Shown here in pieces: positions 7,810 through 42,473 of a stretch of DNA of 55,222 nt. Every line of letters starts with the position of its first letter. Positions within the stretch are counted from its first letter, which is position 1. The translations under genes were made by a program, and so were the position numbers. Below the pieces are notes generated by a model. That model was not told the origin of the DNA, made no database searches, and was given only the letters and a program-made list of their open reading frames with translations. Origin of the DNA: Nitrosopumilaceae archaeon (GTDB lineage: Archaea > Thermoproteota > Nitrososphaeria > Nitrososphaerales > Nitrosopumilaceae); NCBI GenBank assembly GCA_028279545.1, contig JANQNN010000051.1, forward strand, positions 1 through 55,222, read 5' to 3'.

Positions 7810-8982
7810 ATGACGAGGGTCACAATAACTACCAAGAAATCGCGCCACGCAAACAAGTTTGGAAAACTGATTTTTGATGATGGTACCGTTCTTGAAGGGA
7901 TGGGATTTGGTTATTCAACAACTGTTTTTGGTGAAATTGTATTTAATACTGGAATGGTTGGCTATCCAGAGACTCTAACTGATCCATCTTATAGTGGTCA
8001 AATTCTAACTCTTACTTATCCGCTAGTGGGAAACTATGGGGTACCCGATCCCACAATAAAAGACCCTGATGGGATCCCAAAATTCTTTGAATCAAACAAA
8101 ATCCAAATCCGCGGCCTGGTGGTCCATGAATTGTCCCTTTCTGCTAGCCATTGGAACCTTTCATTAACTCTTGATGAATGGATGAATAATGAAAAAATTC
8201 CTGGAATTTCAGGAATTGATACTAGGGAATTAACCAAGAAAATAAGGAAAGGTGGAGTAATGATGGCCGCTTTAGTAGTTTCTGATTCTGAAATTGACGA
8301 GGAGAAAATTAGAAAACAACTTCAATCTGCCCCAAAATATGTTTCTGAAAAATTTATGGATGCTGTCTCTACTTCCCAAGAAGAAGTCTATGGCCAAACA
8401 GGTGAACCTGTTGTTGTAATTGATACTGGGGCAAAAAATTCCATTTTACGAAACATTAGAAATCTGGGATATAAAGTGATAAAATTACCATGGGATACAT
8501 CTTTTGAAAAAATAATTTCCTATAAGCCTAAAGGAGTGGTAATAAGCAATGGTCCAGGTGATCCTCAAAATTGTCCAGACACTATTGAAACTGCAAAAAA
8601 ATTAATTGAAAGTAACATACCTACCCTAGGAATTTGTTTGGGAGCTCAAATTATTGGGATAGCAGGAAATACCAAAACCTACAAACTAAAGTATGGTCAT
8701 AGAGGACAAAACAAACCTTGTGTAAATTTAGATAATGATCAAATTTATGTTACAAGTCAAAATCATGGTTATGGAATTGACCCTGTTTCATTAAAAAATT
8801 CTGATTTTAATTTATGGTTTAAAAACGTAGATGACAATACAGTCGAAGGAATCAAACATAAAATAAAAAACTGCATCGCAGTACAGTTTCATCCAGAAGC
8901 AACACCTGGTCCTTATGATTGTAAATTCGTCTTTGAAGAGCTAAGTCACCTAATGGGGGAGGGAAACACTGCCAAAAAATGA
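7810..8982 (+). CDS. carA: Carbamoyl-phosphate synthase small (glutaminase) subunit
   Basis: A 390-residue subunit that releases ammonia from glutamine and feeds it to CarB, for pyrimidine and arginine synthesis. The N-terminal domain carries GKLIFDDGTVLEGMGFGYS. The class I glutamine amidotransferase domain follows, with the nucleophile Cys276 in LGICLGAQIIG and the His in VQFHPEATPGP near 360. The ATG at 7810 gives the standard N-terminus. The last 14 bases overlap the proposed carB start, consistent with a coupled operon. Confidence 0.96.
   Translation: MTRVTITTKKSRHANKFGKLIFDDGTVLEGMGFGYSTTVFGEIVFNTGMVGYPETLTDPSYSGQILTLTYPLVGNYGVPDPTIKDPDGIPKFFESNKIQIRGLVVHELSLSASHWNLSLTLDEWMNNEKIPGISGIDTRELTKKIRKGGVMMAALVVSDSEIDEEKIRKQLQSAPKYVSEKFMDAVSTSQEEVYGQTGEPVVVIDTGAKNSILRNIRNLGYKVIKLPWDTSFEKIISYKPKGVVISNGPGDPQNCPDTIETAKKLIESNIPTLGICLGAQIIGIAGNTKTYKLKYGHRGQNKPCVNLDNDQIYVTSQNHGYGIDPVSLKNSDFNLWFKNVDDNTVEGIKHKIKNCIAVQFHPEATPGPYDCKFVFEELSHLMGEGNTAKK
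8958..8962 (+). promoter_or_regulatory. Shine-Dalgarno GGAGG for carB, deciding a CTG start
   Basis: GGAGG lies inside the end of carA, six bases before CTG at 8969. In this frame the only codons between an upstream TAA and the conserved ILVLGSG motif that could start translation are this CTG. The ATGs nearby (8953, 8979) are in other frames. Many genes in this window lack a Shine-Dalgarno, so the match is informative. Confidence 0.6.
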
Positions 8983-11900
8983 GGAGTTAAAAAAAATTCT
9001 AGTACTAGGTAGTGGGGCAATAAAAATCGGAGAAGCCGGCGAGAGTCGCTAAAAACGACCGTCAATTTGACTACTCCGGAAGCCAATGCCTCAAAGCAAT
9101 TCGGGAAGATGGACTGAAAAGTGTATTAATCAATCCAAACATTGCTACTATTCAAACTGATACCCGGTTTGCAGACAAAGTCTATCTTCTACCAGTAACA
9201 CCAGAGTACGTAGAATCAGTTGTAGAAAAGGAAAGACCTGATGGAATTATGCTTGCATATGGAGGCCAAACTGCGCTAAATTGTGGAGTAAAGCTAGAGG
9301 ATAATGGTATATTACAAAAATATGGCATAAAGGTTCTAGGAACCCAAGTTCCTGGAATTAAAAGGGCTGAGGACAGACAATTATTCAAAGATTCAATGAC
9401 ACAGTGTAATGTTCCAATTCTAAGAAGTAAAACTGTTACAAACTTTGAAGATGCAAAAAGAGTTGCCGAAGAACTCTGTTATCCTGTAATAATTAGAGTG
9501 GCATATACTTTGGGAGGAAAAGGTGGAGGAGTTGCATACAATGAAATTGAATTACATGAAATAGTTGAGAGGGGGCTACGTGCAAGCTTGGTTGGGCAAG
9601 TCCTAATTGAAGAATACATTGGGCATTGGAAGCAAATTGAATATGAGGTAATGCAAGATTATGCTGGAAATAACGTTATAGTATGTAATATGGAAAATGT
9701 TCTTTCAATGAAAGCCCATACAGGAGATAACATTGTAGTTGCACCTTCACAAACAATTGATAACAATGAGTATCATACACTTCGTTCAGCAGCATTGCGT
9801 GCAACCAAACATGTGGGAATTGTAGGAGAGTGTAATATTCAATATGCATTAGATCCGGATTCTGATAGGTATGTTGCAATCGAAATCAATCCTAGATTAT
9901 CAAGGTCATCTGCTCTTGCAAGCAAAGCTACAGGTTATCCTCTGGCTTACATGTCAGCAAAAATTGGATTAGGTTATGATTTATCTGAACTTGTAAACAG
10001 AATTACAAAAACTACAACTGCATGTTTTGAGCCTTCATTAGATTATATTGTGTGCAAACACCCAAGGTGGGATTTTTCTAAATTTGAATTCGTAAATAGA
10101 AAACTAGGTCCTACTATGAAATCCGTAGGAGAAGTAATGGCTGTAGGAAGAACATTTGAAGAATCCATCCAAAAAGCAATTCGCATGTTAGATATTGGAA
10201 ACGACGGTCTTGTATTAAATAGAAATACCGGTCAAACTTTTGATGAGGAAGAATTAGAAAACAAGTTATCACATCATGATGATTTTATTTTGTATTATGT
10301 GGCAGCTGCTCTAAAATTTGGATTCTCCATACAAAGAATTTACAAATTGTCATCAATTGACCAATGGTTTATTGAAAAAATAAAAAACATTGTTGAAGTT
10401 GAAGAAAAATTAACAAAAAATGAATTAAACAAATCACTACTTTGGGAGGCAAAAAAAGCTGGGTTTTCAGATAAACAAATTGGCCGTGCAAAAAACAAAA
10501 CTCCAGAGGAAATTCGAGACTTTAGAAAAGAAAATGGAGTTTTGCCCTCAGTAAAACAGATTGATTCATTGGCTGCCGAATGGCCTGCTGCAACAAATTA
10601 TCTATATCTTACCTATGGAGGGAACTCTCATGACATCCAAGTACAATCTGAAGATAAGGGAATTATTGTTCTTGGAGCAGGTCCATACCGAATAGGAAGC
10701 AGCGTAGAATTTGATTGGGGAACGGTAAATATGGTTTGGTCACTCCAAGAAAACGGAGAAAAAAATATTTCAGTTGTAAATTGCAACCCTGAAACTGTAT
10801 CTACTGATTATGATATTTGTAGTAGATTGTATTTTGAGGAATTAACTCAGGAACGAATATTGGATATAACAGAGTTTGAAAATCCTAAAGGAGTAATTAC
10901 TTGTGTAGGTGGACAAACAGCTAATAATCTTACACCTGGTTTAGCTGAAAACAATGTCAAAATATTGGGAACAAGTGCTTTTGATGTAGATAGAGCAGAA
11001 AACCGTTCAAAATTTAGTGCAGAACTTGATAAACTCCATATCCAACAACCACGGTGGCAGGCTTTTTCAAATCTTAGTGCAGCAAAAGACTTTGCAGAAG
11101 AAGTTGGTTTCCCTGTTATTGTAAGGCCCTCTTATGTGTTATCAGGAGCTGCAATGAAAGTGGTTTGGTCAAAAGAAGAATTAAAGACATACGTAAAGGA
11201 AGCTACGGATGTTTCTCCTGATCATCCAGTTGTTATTTCAAAATTTATGTTAAATTCATTGGAAGTAGATGTTGATGGAGTTAGTAATGGAACTGAAGTA
11301 ATAATAGGTGCAATTGTTGAGCATATCGACAGTGCAGGAGTTCACTCTGGGGATGCAATGATGTGCATTCCTCCATGGCGGCTAAATAACAAAACAATTG
11401 AAACCATTACAGAATACACTAAAAAAATTGCAACGACATTTAATGTAAAAGGTCCATTTAACTTACAATTTCTAGTTCACGATAATCATGTCTATGTAAT
11501 TGAATTAAACATTAGAGCGTCTCGTTCTATGCCATTTGTTTCAAAACTTGTAAAAACAAATTTAATTTCTTTAGCTTCTGCTGCCATCTTGGATAAGCCT
11601 TTGCCAAAAATTCCACAAAACAAATGGCAAAAGATTCATAATTATGGAATTAAAGTCCCACAATTTTCATTTATGCAATTAGATGGAGCAGATATTACTT
11701 TAGGCGTGGAAATGCAATCAACAGGCGAGGCTGCGTGTTTTGGAACCAGCTTTTTTGATGCTTTATCAAAGGGTCTAACTTCGGTTGGGTACAACCTACC
11801 TGACAAAGGAGCTGCTTTGGTGACTGTTGGTGGTGACCAAAACAAAGAAAAATTACTTCAATCAATTGCACTGCTAAAAAATCTTGGTTTTAAGATACTT

Positions 11901-12242
11901 GCAACTGAGCATACGGCAGAATTTTTTGAAGAAAAAATTGGCCAAATTGAAATCGTTCATAAAATTTCTGAACCGGAAAGAAAACCAAACATTGCTGATT
12001 TGTTACACGAAAGAAAAATAAATTTCATAATTAACATTCCAAGTACATCCACACTTGAAAAATATGTTGGAATGCTTGATGATGAATATCAGATTAGAAG
12101 AAAGTCTTTAGAATTAGGTGTCCCTGTCCTTACTACCATTGAACTAGCAGATTCTTTTGTTAAAACATTAGAGTGGTTAAAAAATAACAAACCTACAATT
12201 GAGCCAATAGAACCATATGATCCATTGGATTATAGCACTTGA
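8969..12242 (+). CDS. carB: Carbamoyl-phosphate synthase large subunit, interrupted by a 22-nt putative BHB intron
   Basis: Makes carbamoyl phosphate from bicarbonate, ammonia and two ATP. Exon 1 (8969-9043) encodes the expected N-terminus MPKNEELKKILVLGSG and then AIKIGEAGE. The frame then meets a stop at 9050-9052. Skipping exactly 9044-9065 joins GAG to TTT GAC TAC, giving the family's GEFDYSGSQ sequence, and the frame stays open to 12242. The joined protein is 1083 residues, normal for CarB, with two ATP-grasp halves and a C-terminal MGS-like domain. The start appears to be CTG at 8969, six bases after a GGAGG Shine-Dalgarno. The 3' end overlaps a convergent gene by 13 bp. Without splicing, translation from an internal start would lose part of the first biotin-carboxylase-like N-domain. 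Confidence 0.88.
9044..9065 (+). other. Putative 22-nt archaeal BHB intron in carB
   Basis: The 22 bases have no place in the CarB protein and shift the frame (22 is not a multiple of 3). The flanks fold as a bulge-helix-bulge: GGCG (9038-9041) pairs with CGTC (9060-9063) through four pairs including one G-U. Three-base bulges AGA (9042-9044) and AAT (9064-9066) sit on either side. The inner helix GTCG (9045-9048) pairs with CGAC (9056-9059) around a 7-base loop. The protein-defined junctions fall after the second base of each 3-base bulge, exactly where archaeal EndA cuts. An outer exon-exon helix is not obvious, so it is of the relaxed type. No RNA evidence is available here. Confidence 0.75.
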
Positions 12243-39395: not shown

Positions 39396-40169
39396 ATGAT
39401 TGATCAATTGTGGTTAATTCCTTTAGGATTTGCAGCAGGTGTTTTAGGCTCTATGATTGGGCTTGGCGGTGGAATAATAATAGTTCCCATTTTGACATTT
39501 TTTGGTTTTTCACCTACCTTGGCTGCTAGTAACAGTCTTTTTGCAGCATTTAGTAATGCCGTGGCCTCTACTATTTCCTATTCAAAACAAAAAAGAATTG
39601 AATTCTCATTAGGAATTAAACTAGGGTTACTAACCATACCTGGAACTATTTTAGGTGCTTATGTTTCTAGCAATGTAACTCCCGAAATTTTTAAAATTCT
39701 TTTTGGATTTGTTTTGATAGCATCTGCAGGCTATATTTTTTTAAGAAAAAAAATTGAGAATAGAGAAATTAATCTATCCAAACAAATGATGATTTTTGCT
39801 ATTGGTGCAAGCTTTTTTGCTGGAATAATTTCAGCCTTTTTTGGAATAGGGGGAGGAATAATCTTTGTCCCACTAATGGTAGTAGGAATGGGAATGGCAA
39901 TGAAAAAAGCAGCTCCTACATCTCAATTAATTTTGTTATTTGCTTCTTTATCTGGTGTAATTGTTCATACTATTTTGGGCCATTCTGATTTCCTACAAGC
40001 CGGTTTACTTGCTATTGGTTCCTTTGCAGGAGGATTGGTAGGTGCTAGATTATCTGTTGATATTCGTGAAAGATATTTACAAATTTTGGTTTCATTTGCA
40101 ATACTTGCTGCTGCTATCAAAATGTTCTTTGATTCTTTTTATGATAATCTATATTTGATTAATAATTGA
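39396..40169 (+). CDS. TauE/SafE-type (TSUP) permease
   Basis: A 257-residue protein with about eight membrane helices and two homologous halves. The family repeats are GFAAGVLGSMIGLGGGIIIVPIL at the N-terminus and the matching FFAGIISAFFGIGGGIIFVPLM in the second half. TSUP members export sulfite, sulfonates or other small anions. Substrate unknown. It has its own upstream region. Confidence 0.88.
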   Translation: MIDQLWLIPLGFAAGVLGSMIGLGGGIIIVPILTFFGFSPTLAASNSLFAAFSNAVASTISYSKQKRIEFSLGIKLGLLTIPGTILGAYVSSNVTPEIFKILFGFVLIASAGYIFLRKKIENREINLSKQMMIFAIGASFFAGIISAFFGIGGGIIFVPLMVVGMGMAMKKAAPTSQLILLFASLSGVIVHTILGHSDFLQAGLLAIGSFAGGLVGARLSVDIRERYLQILVSFAILAAAIKMFFDSFYDNLYLINN

Positions 40170-40233: not shown

Positions 40234-40683
40234 TTATCTTGGTGGCTCTTTTTTAATTCTGTAGAGGTTTTTCTTTGAAATTAAAACGGTTTCTTCAGCT
40301 TGGTTAATTCCTTCAAAGTCAATTGAAATTTTTCCATAGGTTTCATCGATTTCTTCTTTCCCTGAAACAGTATACTGTATTTTTAGGACTTCATCTGTGT
40401 GAAGTGGTTTAAGAAATCTAGTGCATCTGTTACCCCATTCAGGGTCTCCGTCAATTCCAATTAGGACTATGTGGTTTCCATAAATTTGGTTTAGTCTAGT
40501 AAATTCCCCTTCAATTCTTGATAATGCTGCCCTTCCTGATACCAAAGTGTTCTTGCTTCCGTAGTCTTCCAAGAATGCATTTTTTACTCTTGAAAAGTTT
40601 AGGTATTCATCTAATTCTTTTTCTGAAATGCTACACGTTGAAAAAAATTTATCCCCTACCTTAAAATCCGAAAATTTTTTCAT
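40234..40683 (-). CDS. MaoC-like hot-dog protein
   Basis: A 149-residue protein with a hot-dog fold pattern as in MaoC hydratases: FSDFKVGDKFFSTCSISEKEL at the start and a FLKPLHTDEVLKIQYTV strand pair late. The usual hydratase Asp/His pair (D.NP.H) is not seen in the expected helix (FSRVKNAFLEDYG), so activity as an enoyl-CoA hydratase is doubtful. It starts 3 bp after the stop of the tandem SDR gene, so the two are one unit. Confidence 0.65.
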   Translation of the reverse strand: MKKFSDFKVGDKFFSTCSISEKELDEYLNFSRVKNAFLEDYGSKNTLVSGRAALSRIEGEFTRLNQIYGNHIVLIGIDGDPEWGNRCTRFLKPLHTDEVLKIQYTVSGKEEIDETYGKISIDFEGINQAEETVLISKKNLYRIKKEPPR

Positions 40684-40685
40684 TC

Positions 40686-42473
40686 TTATCTTAATTCATC
40701 AACACAAAATGTAACTTCAGAAGATGAAGTTGCACTGTCTGATACTAGGAAATTCAAAGCCTGACTAATATTTTCATTATTTGGTTCAGAACCAGTTACT
40801 GAACCTGGAAGGATGGTAAATAATCTAATTTTTGATTTTAGAACATCACTCAATTCCTGGTTTACCGTAGTGGTAAATGGTCGAAGAGCTCCTCTAAAAA
40901 CTTCTACTTGGGCTCTTTGAGTTCCAGAGACTTTTCTTCCTGATGGAAGATCAGGACCAATTATCATAAACGCGCCAGTTGCATCTTTGTAAAGTCGAGG
41001 ATCTTTTGCTCCCCCTGGAACAAATTGTTCTAAGGCTCTTTGAGCTACTGTGGCAGGAGTTGTAATAAATTTCTCAATCAGGTCCTCCCACTTTGATCTT
41101 GATAATTCAGTTAATTTTGAAATTTCAGGTAATTTTCCTGTAACATGAACTACAGCAAGAATTTCTCCTAGATTGGTCTTAGCTGTGTTTAACCATTTTT
41201 CAACCTCATCAGGATTTTTTATATTTACAATATGGGAATGAAACGCATTACTAATTGAATCTTGAATCTCTTTAGGTGTAGACTCTGAAATAAAACAAGC
41301 AACTTTACCTCCATTATTTTCAACATGTTTGGCTAAAAATTGAACTCTTTCAGAATCTATTTGGTCAGTGGCATCAATGGTAAAGACTATAGATTTTCCT
41401 GAAAAGTCTGGTTGATGAACATTGGGTGTGGTAGTTCCAATATGTGGTTTAACTGGATAAAATACTCTGTCTCCTGGAATAACCTTTCCGTTTATTATTT
41501 TTGAAATTTCATCATCACACAAATTCAAAACAGATTCAGCAACTTGAGATTGAGATAGAAATTCTTGGTTTGCAATCATATGTGAAGTATTGTTTTGAAC
41601 TTTTTCTGCAATGTATTGAATTTTATTCAAAAGATTTGTAAATGTGGTGTTTAGTTTTTCAGCATCAATTCCATTTTCTTGTGATAATTTTTGAGCAGCA
41701 TTTGCAATTCCTTCTTTAACTACATTTTCGTCTTCGCCAAGTAATGGTAATAGTTCCTTGTTTGCAGCATCAACTTGTTCTGGTGTTAAATCTTCAAAAC
41801 CACTTACTCTCATAAATTCAGATGCAGCTTTTGGATAAACTGTTTTGTAAATTCTATCTGAATGTACGGGTCCAGGATTTGTTGCAATTGAAATAATTCC
41901 TTTATCTGTTAACTCCCAAGACATTGCTTCAGCTAGTCTATTTTTAGCTCCTTGTGATGCAGTGTATGGGCTTCTAAATCGATAAGGTCTTTGTTCTAGT
42001 GGTCTTTCTTCTGTAAAGAATGTTGAAATTGTAATTATTTTTCCACCCTCTTTCATAACTTTTAATGATTGTACTGAACCCCAAAAAGTTCCGGTAAGAT
42101 GAATCCCAATTGTACTTTTAAAATCATCTAAGGGAGAATTTGGAAAACACGTTACTGGACCTGAAACTCCGGCGTTGTTAACAATAAAATCAATAGTAGA
42201 ATTTTCATTTTTTAGGGTGTCAAACATTGCAGTCATTGCATCCTCGTCTGCAACATCTACTCCTGAGAATATTTTGACAGTAGCACCACTGTTAATTTGG
42301 GCTATAATTCCTTCAAGCATTTTTGAAGTCTCTTCCAAGGGCTCTCGTCTTCTACCTAGAATTATTACGCTTGCTCCATTTTCAACGAACTTTTTGGCAA
42401 TTGCCTGACCAATTCCAGTCCCACTCCCGGTGATTAAAGCAGTTTTTCCTTGAAATTTAGACATAGATAACAA
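40686..42473 (-). CDS. Tandem short-chain dehydrogenase, like the N-terminal half of malonyl-CoA reductase
   Basis: A 595-residue protein made of two SDR-type Rossmann units. Unit 1 (to about 350) has TGSGTGIG at 15-22 and NNAG at 99-102. Its catalytic region has Ser150 and Tyr170, but the YxxxK Lys is a Gln (YTASQ, Gln174). Unit 2 (about 350-595) lacks the glycine motif. Order, size and segments such as NPGPVHSDRI match, from memory, the first half of the bifunctional Chloroflexus malonyl-CoA reductase, which reduces malonate semialdehyde. A role in 3-hydroxypropionate chemistry is therefore possible but not proved. A hot-dog gene follows directly. Confidence 0.7.
   Translation of the reverse strand: MLSMSKFQGKTALITGSGTGIGQAIAKKFVENGASVIILGRRREPLEETSKMLEGIIAQINSGATVKIFSGVDVADEDAMTAMFDTLKNENSTIDFIVNNAGVSGPVTCFPNSPLDDFKSTIGIHLTGTFWGSVQSLKVMKEGGKIITISTFFTEERPLEQRPYRFRSPYTASQGAKNRLAEAMSWELTDKGIISIATNPGPVHSDRIYKTVYPKAASEFMRVSGFEDLTPEQVDAANKELLPLLGEDENVVKEGIANAAQKLSQENGIDAEKLNTTFTNLLNKIQYIAEKVQNNTSHMIANQEFLSQSQVAESVLNLCDDEISKIINGKVIPGDRVFYPVKPHIGTTTPNVHQPDFSGKSIVFTIDATDQIDSERVQFLAKHVENNGGKVACFISESTPKEIQDSISNAFHSHIVNIKNPDEVEKWLNTAKTNLGEILAVVHVTGKLPEISKLTELSRSKWEDLIEKFITTPATVAQRALEQFVPGGAKDPRLYKDATGAFMIIGPDLPSGRKVSGTQRAQVEVFRGALRPFTTTVNQELSDVLKSKIRLFTILPGSVTGSEPNNENISQALNFLVSDSATSSSEVTFCVDELR

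Follow-up and report, generated by a model that had tools for sequence, protein, structure and literature searches.

The window analysed here, a stretch of 55,222 nucleotides from a Nitrosopumilaceae archaeon, carries a gene for a tandem SDR protein that very probably belongs, by its structure, to the malonyl-CoA reductase (MCR) group and whose occurrence follows that of amoA. It is put forward as a strong candidate, not as a demonstration, for a reductase of carbon fixation in ammonia-oxidising archaea (AOA). That the protein works in the 3-hydroxypropionate/4-hydroxybutyrate (HP/HB) cycle is probable; the narrower proposal, that the thaumarchaeal version of this cycle has in it its NADPH-dependent malonyl-CoA reductase, is tentative, at slightly less than an even chance. 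From the gene itself, its conservation and distribution, its predicted fold and its substrate motif we infer the substrate, the direction of the reaction and the role.

AOA are abundant microbes that fix CO2 globally, in soils and in the dark ocean, through an energy-efficient variant of the HP/HB cycle. In Nitrosopumilus maritimus the reductase genes of the cycle, that of malonyl-CoA reductase among them, are not assigned although the activities exist in extracts, and succinyl-CoA reductase, acryloyl-CoA reductase and succinic semialdehyde reductase are further steps of the model that lack an assigned gene (PMC6038301). According to a 2020 paper, bioinformatic means cannot identify the malonyl-CoA reductase of N. 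maritimus (PMC6964070), and the markers compiled in 2026 for the AOA cycle variant do not include the enzyme (PMC12894919), in keeping with what the sequence-only reading of this DNA had stated. The literature accessible to us gives no MCR gene for AOA, a proposal in subscription literature having possibly been missed, and a literature search for expression data on the tandem SDR found none. For Nitrosocaldus, which is without the known malonic semialdehyde reductase, unspecified SDRs with ~30% identity to Chloroflexus MCR were named as candidates for that enzyme (PMC5797428); the characterised malonic semialdehyde reductase of N. maritimus is cited there as Nmar_1110. One of the Nitrosocaldus candidates could be the tandem SDR gene, and the idea pursued here is therefore partly anticipated.

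Gene structure and predicted fold

The tandem SDR gene occupies positions 40,686–42,473 on the minus strand and reads as 595 residues from a TTG codon; translation more likely starts at the ATG at codon 4 (position 42,464; 592 residues), since the start of many orthologues lies at this point. Three parts can be distinguished: SDR-A (residues 1–205), a mostly helical extra domain of about 140 residues (206 to ~345) and a degenerate second unit, SDR-B (residues ~345–595; 40,689–41,441, minus strand), with the conserved stretch RA..EVFRG..RP...T.NQE. Pfam adh_short matches residues 10–206 (41,856–42,446, minus strand; E 2e-39), which hold the motifs TGSGTGIG, GRR (NADP-type, R41-R42) and NNAG, and this is the sole Pfam SDR match in the window protein. 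The same family matches the second unit of an orthologue from family f3 (genome G038; E 5e-8). A sequence profile of SDR-B run against the PDB finds SDRs weakly (best E 2e-6); these are generic ones, with no match to MCR, whose SDR4 is not reached.

An AlphaFold2 model built from the orthologue alignment (pLDDT 88, pTM 0.89; low confidence in loop 153–163) contains SDR-A, the mostly helical region at ~206–345 and a second Rossmann-like unit at ~345–595. The two-unit SDR with a normal first and a degenerate second unit, as originally described, is thus borne out, with its start more likely at the ATG; the helical segment between the units had gone unnoticed in that description. In a Foldseek comparison with the PDB the best 24 matches are all bacterial MCR chains, aligned over both units (631–709 alignment columns), and are followed by the MFE-2 structure 2et6 (TM 0.54) and then by single SDRs. 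The C half of MCR leads with E 2e-26 and a TM of 0.72 by query length, ahead of the N half with E 4e-24 and a TM of 0.69 by query length, or 0.74–0.76 by target length.

The bacterial MCR C half (Chloroflexus 8j2b/8a8t, Roseiflexus 8hi5 and the 6k8s C-domain) shares with the tandem SDR the succession of a catalytic SDR, a helical extra domain and a non-catalytic SDR, a layout described as SDR3–extra domain–SDR4 (PMC10470521). Since the long helical inter-unit segment is as in this half, we place the protein nearer to it, the CoA-acylating half, than to the N half, where the segment is shorter, as estimated from alignments, and the Foldseek E-values are slightly weaker. The sequence-only reading had likened the layout to the N half. 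Its link to MCR stands and is stronger than could be seen at that stage, upheld by the best structural matches and by the substrate motif described below, but the predicted layout appears to fit the C half at least as well, the margin being modest. Unlike the C half, the tandem SDR is a free-standing archaeal gene, shows 17–18% identity to it in the structural alignment and has a second unit that is not recognisable as SDR4 by sequence.

Active-site residues and kinship with malonyl-CoA reductases

Among 32 orthologues from four archaeal families (43–88% identity to the window protein) conservation concentrates in SDR-A, with TG.GTGIG, GRR (R41-R42) and NNAGVSGPV, and the strongest conserved stretches are EE....QRPYRFR.PYT..QG.KNRL and GPVHSDRIYKTVYP. 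The former includes a YxxRxxY substrate motif (Y164-R-F-R167-S-P-Y170; 41,964–41,984, minus strand, coordinates computed from residue numbers) that ends in the catalytic Tyr and whose Y164, R167 and Y170 are kept in 32/32 orthologues. In Roseiflexus MCR each of the two catalytic units has a YXXRXXY motif (Y172YGRIAY178 and Y743PNRSDY749), by which the malonate end of the substrate is bound (PMC10470521, Zhang et al. 2023). In a profile alignment with this enzyme Y164/R167/Y170 fall on Y743/R746/Y749 of SDR3 and on Y172/R175/Y178 of SDR1, T151 is matched to Ser731/Thr165, R207 to Arg785/Arg215, the Arg behind PGP that serves in CoA/MSA binding, and R41 to Arg41, which binds NADP; T151, R207 and R41/R42 are likewise invariant among the 32 orthologues. 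The motif, the Ser/Thr, the Tyr, the Arg785 equivalent and the NADP-type Arg are all shared with the MCR C half. The N half (8aew, 8hi6, 6k8v), a malonate semialdehyde reductase, resembles the tandem SDR in its two SDR units, in YxxRxxY, in a Thr for the catalytic Ser and in PGP(I/V)xS(D/E)RI, whose Ser and Arg bind NADP/MSA. YxxRxxY is absent from 26 other archaeal and bacterial SDRs inspected, a set with many near-duplicates, and likewise from 8 bacterial SDRs retrieved with the query (34 other SDRs in all).

The SDR tetrad Asn-Ser-Tyr-Lys is His125-Thr151-Tyr170-Gln174 here, all four residues being invariant in 32/32 orthologues. The protein has neither the N-S-Y-K tetrad of classical SDRs (FabG type) nor the Ser/Thr-Tyr-Lys triad of MCR, of which T151 and Y170 are present and the Lys position is Gln174 (codon at 41,952–41,954, minus strand, also computed from the residue number); the MCR N half, by contrast, keeps YxxxK. 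This exchange, already pointed out in the first reading, is fixed throughout the orthologues and is therefore neither a sequencing error nor the sign of a decayed copy. Mutating the equivalent Lys753 or Lys182 of Roseiflexus MCR abolishes or sharply lowers activity (PMC10470521), which justifies the earlier warning that the chemistry may be different. Gln174 for the catalytic Lys together with His125 for Asn, both departures from the C half, is the main problem for an MCR role.

In Roseiflexus the Lys of SDR1 orients the cofactor ribose, and a Tyr743-Arg746 pair protonates the CoA thiolate (PMC10470521). The counterparts of this pair are both kept in the tandem SDR, and Gln174 could in principle orient the ribose in place of Lys. 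K177, one helical turn past Gln174, is also invariant. A FabI-like Y-x6-K arrangement (Y170...K177) was considered and set aside: its spacing agrees, but by helix register it is Gln174 that takes the Lys place of YxxxK, and K177 is therefore treated only as a possible stand-in for the catalytic Lys.

By sequence, SDR-A scores 83 bits per domain against MCR and 91 bits against the generic SDR 4iuy, so that MCR is not separated from other SDRs. Even between the SDR1 and SDR3 units of MCR sequence similarity is no greater than between these units and ordinary SDRs, and sequence alone therefore cannot settle kinship with MCR. Trees of SDR-A that include both MCR units place AOA and MCR together, on long branches, with support of 97/95, 95/95 and 95/93 under different outgroups, and of 84/91 with a smaller outgroup. 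Removal of the active-site loop columns and of those in the PGP stretch makes the grouping vanish without its being rejected (p-AU 0.46), so that the tree restates what the motif shows and adds no independent evidence. A placement away from MCR, named earlier as a refuting outcome, was thus not obtained, but the grouping found instead rests on the active-site columns. A search for plasmid relatives returned single SDRs only, with no MCR, and a scan of genome contigs for the tandem SDR had its best 80 loci all from AOA.

Distribution and genomic neighbourhood

An order-level survey covered 61 genomes, of which those with a completeness of 90% or more were taken as near-complete. The tandem SDR is present in 34/34 near-complete genomes with amoA and in 0/12 near-complete genomes without it (Fisher p 3e-11, uncorrected for kinship), a co-occurrence that may represent a single evolutionary event. 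Phylum-wide, it was found in 73 of 398 genomes, all within amoA-carrying families, and it is retained in genomes of ~0.8 Mb (G013, G034). Genes of the 4-hydroxybutyryl-CoA dehydratase family (PF11794) are more widely distributed and also occur in lineages without amoA. Two tandem PF11794 genes are present in G037 and G053 of family f2, as published for Nitrosocaldus (PMC5797428). At the tandem-SDR loci of G013 and G034 (L029 and L026; genus g5) the matched frame contains one TAG, yet the ORF scan gives almost full-length ORFs, the TAG lying either inside or just past the gene.

The genome from which the window derives carries amoA, and its host is a Nitrosopumilaceae-type AOA with Nitrosopumilus and Nitrosarchaeum as the nearest named relatives among the matches listed. 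In the AOA loci compared, no gene of the HP/HB cycle is a conserved neighbour of the tandem SDR. The gene that adjoins it in many AOA encodes a 149-residue protein with a MaoC-type hot-dog fold (40,234–40,683, minus strand) and starts 2 bp after the tandem-SDR stop codon; the MaoC-like nature assigned to it beforehand is upheld by its model, the spacing of 3 bp is not. The model (pLDDT 86) finds the MaoC/NodN-like structures 1q6w and 4ffu as best PDB matches (Foldseek E 1e-7, TM 0.64–0.75), and the protein has no Pfam match. Although the fold is the same, the D-x4-H dyad of (R)-specific enoyl-CoA hydratases has no equivalent pair among the invariant columns of 31 hot-dog orthologues, which have their own conserved GRA....EGEFT and YGN. 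The protein may bind acyl-CoA.

The hot-dog gene is absent from G010, G013, G015, G025, G031 and families f2 and f3, and lies elsewhere on the chromosome, apart from the tandem SDR, in G043. In G011 and G032 (L010 and L009) only the first ~30 hot-dog residues match, just downstream of the tandem SDR, which suggests a gene decaying or truncated in that genus. A role as essential partner was accordingly rejected: the gene has been lost in several genera and is therefore not essential and, being neither universal nor equipped with the hydratase dyad, it stands outside the carbon-fixation argument into which it had first been drawn. An MFE-2 or PHA-type pair was rejected as well. MFE-2, the peroxisomal multifunctional enzyme type 2 (2et6), does combine a tandem SDR with a MaoC-fold partner, a MaoC-type hydratase fused in the full protein, but its TM to the model is low and the MaoC-like protein of AOA is dispensable and lacks the dyad.

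Convergent to the pair, a TauE/SafE-type membrane exporter is encoded at 39,396–40,169 on the plus strand and is found nearby in many AOA. Searches for Rfam families around the tandem SDR and hot-dog genes, and for the FAS1_DH_region family in the window's own genome, gave no match. Elsewhere in the window, in the carB region (8,970–9,330), the carB ORF (9,249–12,242) lacks its N-terminus, the start being readable upstream in another frame; the frameshift near 9,050 is either genuine or a fault of the assembly.

Candidate reactions and their meaning

In the proposed reaction NADPH would be bound at SDR-A, and the free carboxylate of malonyl-CoA would be held by Y164, R167 and Y170 in the way described for Roseiflexus MCR, with SDR-B and the helical extra domain closing over CoA. 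The thioester would then receive a hydride, and CoA and malonate semialdehyde would be set free, the latter being reduced by a separate reductase of the Nmar_1110 type known in Nitrosopumilus. Perhaps succinyl-CoA, the substrate of the other unassigned CoA-acylating step, may also be reduced by the tandem SDR. The fuller version, in which one free-standing tandem SDR, with a His/Thr/Tyr/Gln active site that sets it apart from its bacterial counterparts, performs both the malonyl-CoA and the succinyl-CoA reductions of the AOA cycle, is rather unlikely.

Other reductions of the cycle have to be weighed against the CoA-acylating one. A semialdehyde reductase similar to the MCR N half, as the sequence-only reading suggested, which would turn malonic and/or succinic semialdehyde into the hydroxy acid, is favoured by the YxxRxxY and PGPIESxRI that this half shares with the protein, by the resemblance of SDR-A to SDR1 in PGP(V/I)xS(D/E)RI and by the higher TM by target length for the N half. 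In its favour are also the lack of the known malonic semialdehyde reductase in Nitrosocaldus, where low-identity SDRs were named as candidates (PMC5797428), and the succinic semialdehyde reductase that lacks an assigned gene (PMC6038301). We nevertheless consider it quite unlikely: N. maritimus already has Nmar_1110, cited as characterised, the long helical extra domain and the best Foldseek E-values favour the C half, and an SDR of alcohol-dehydrogenase type relies on Tyr-Lys acid chemistry, which Gln174 would weaken. The exact retention of the malonate-binding motif makes a pure succinyl-CoA reductase or an acryloyl-CoA reductase improbable, and acryloyl-CoA lacks a free carboxylate that could sit in the YxxRxxY site, even if these steps lack an assigned gene in the N. 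maritimus model (PMC6038301), a CoA ester with a carboxylate suits the MCR fold and the altered tetrad (H125, T151, Y170 and Q174, with K177) would suit altered chemistry.

A role in carbon fixation as such is weakened by the consideration that other AOA-specific genes would co-occur with amoA too. The tandem SDR might then be an AOA core protein of another kind, for example an enzyme for lipids or cofactors, or else a protein that binds nucleotides without catalysis, its SDR tetrad having been lost, as the K to Q and N to H exchanges, the absence of adjacent cycle genes and the adjoining MaoC fold in many AOA would allow. This is unlikely in our estimate: the substrate loop QRPYRFR.PYT..QG.KNRL is the most conserved stretch of the whole protein and therefore argues against lost catalysis, and the entire two-unit architecture matches MCR above anything else in the PDB. 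Two further protein families, Asd (PF02774) and aldehyde dehydrogenase (PF00171), are known for CoA-acylating reductions of the malonyl-CoA type. Nearly every genome, AOA or not, has one Asd-type and one ArgC/LysY-type PF02774 gene. The malonyl-CoA/succinyl-CoA reductase of Sulfolobales (4dpk), an Asd-family enzyme unrelated to SDRs, would fill the same step of the cycle, but an extra copy of this type was found in none of the near-complete AOA genomes. That a moonlighting Asd reduces malonyl-CoA, leaving the tandem SDR some other task, is very improbable: each near-complete genome has at least one Asd-family gene, to which 4dpk is homologous, but relatives without amoA have Asd as well, mostly in equal copy number, and a representative AOA Asd is nearer to true Asd (307 bits against 1ys4) than to the Sulfolobales MCR (195 bits against 4dpk). 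Aldehyde dehydrogenase was rejected as a universal AOA reductase, PF00171 being missing from 8/34 near-complete AOA genomes (G010, G013, G015, G019, G020, G025, G027 and G034; single-contig ones include G010, G015 and G027). Since neither family supplies a candidate shared by all AOA, the tandem SDR is the one of MCR type that remains among the families compared.

The carbon-fixation candidacy raised by the sequence-only reading is thus retained as to superfamily and pathway, for a gene that tracks amoA, with the C-half reaction now more probable than the N-half one and the MaoC-like protein dropped. One conserved gene with the MCR fold and the substrate motif narrows the gap at malonyl-CoA reduction in AOA to one testable candidate. 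If a single tandem SDR did carry out both CoA-ester reductions, it would be a third solution beside the Asd-type enzyme of Sulfolobales and the bifunctional enzyme of Chloroflexus. If the proposal is true, the gene would provide a specific marker for the AOA pathway, a new enzyme for 3-hydroxypropionate production and a data point on whether the archaeal cycles have independent origins.
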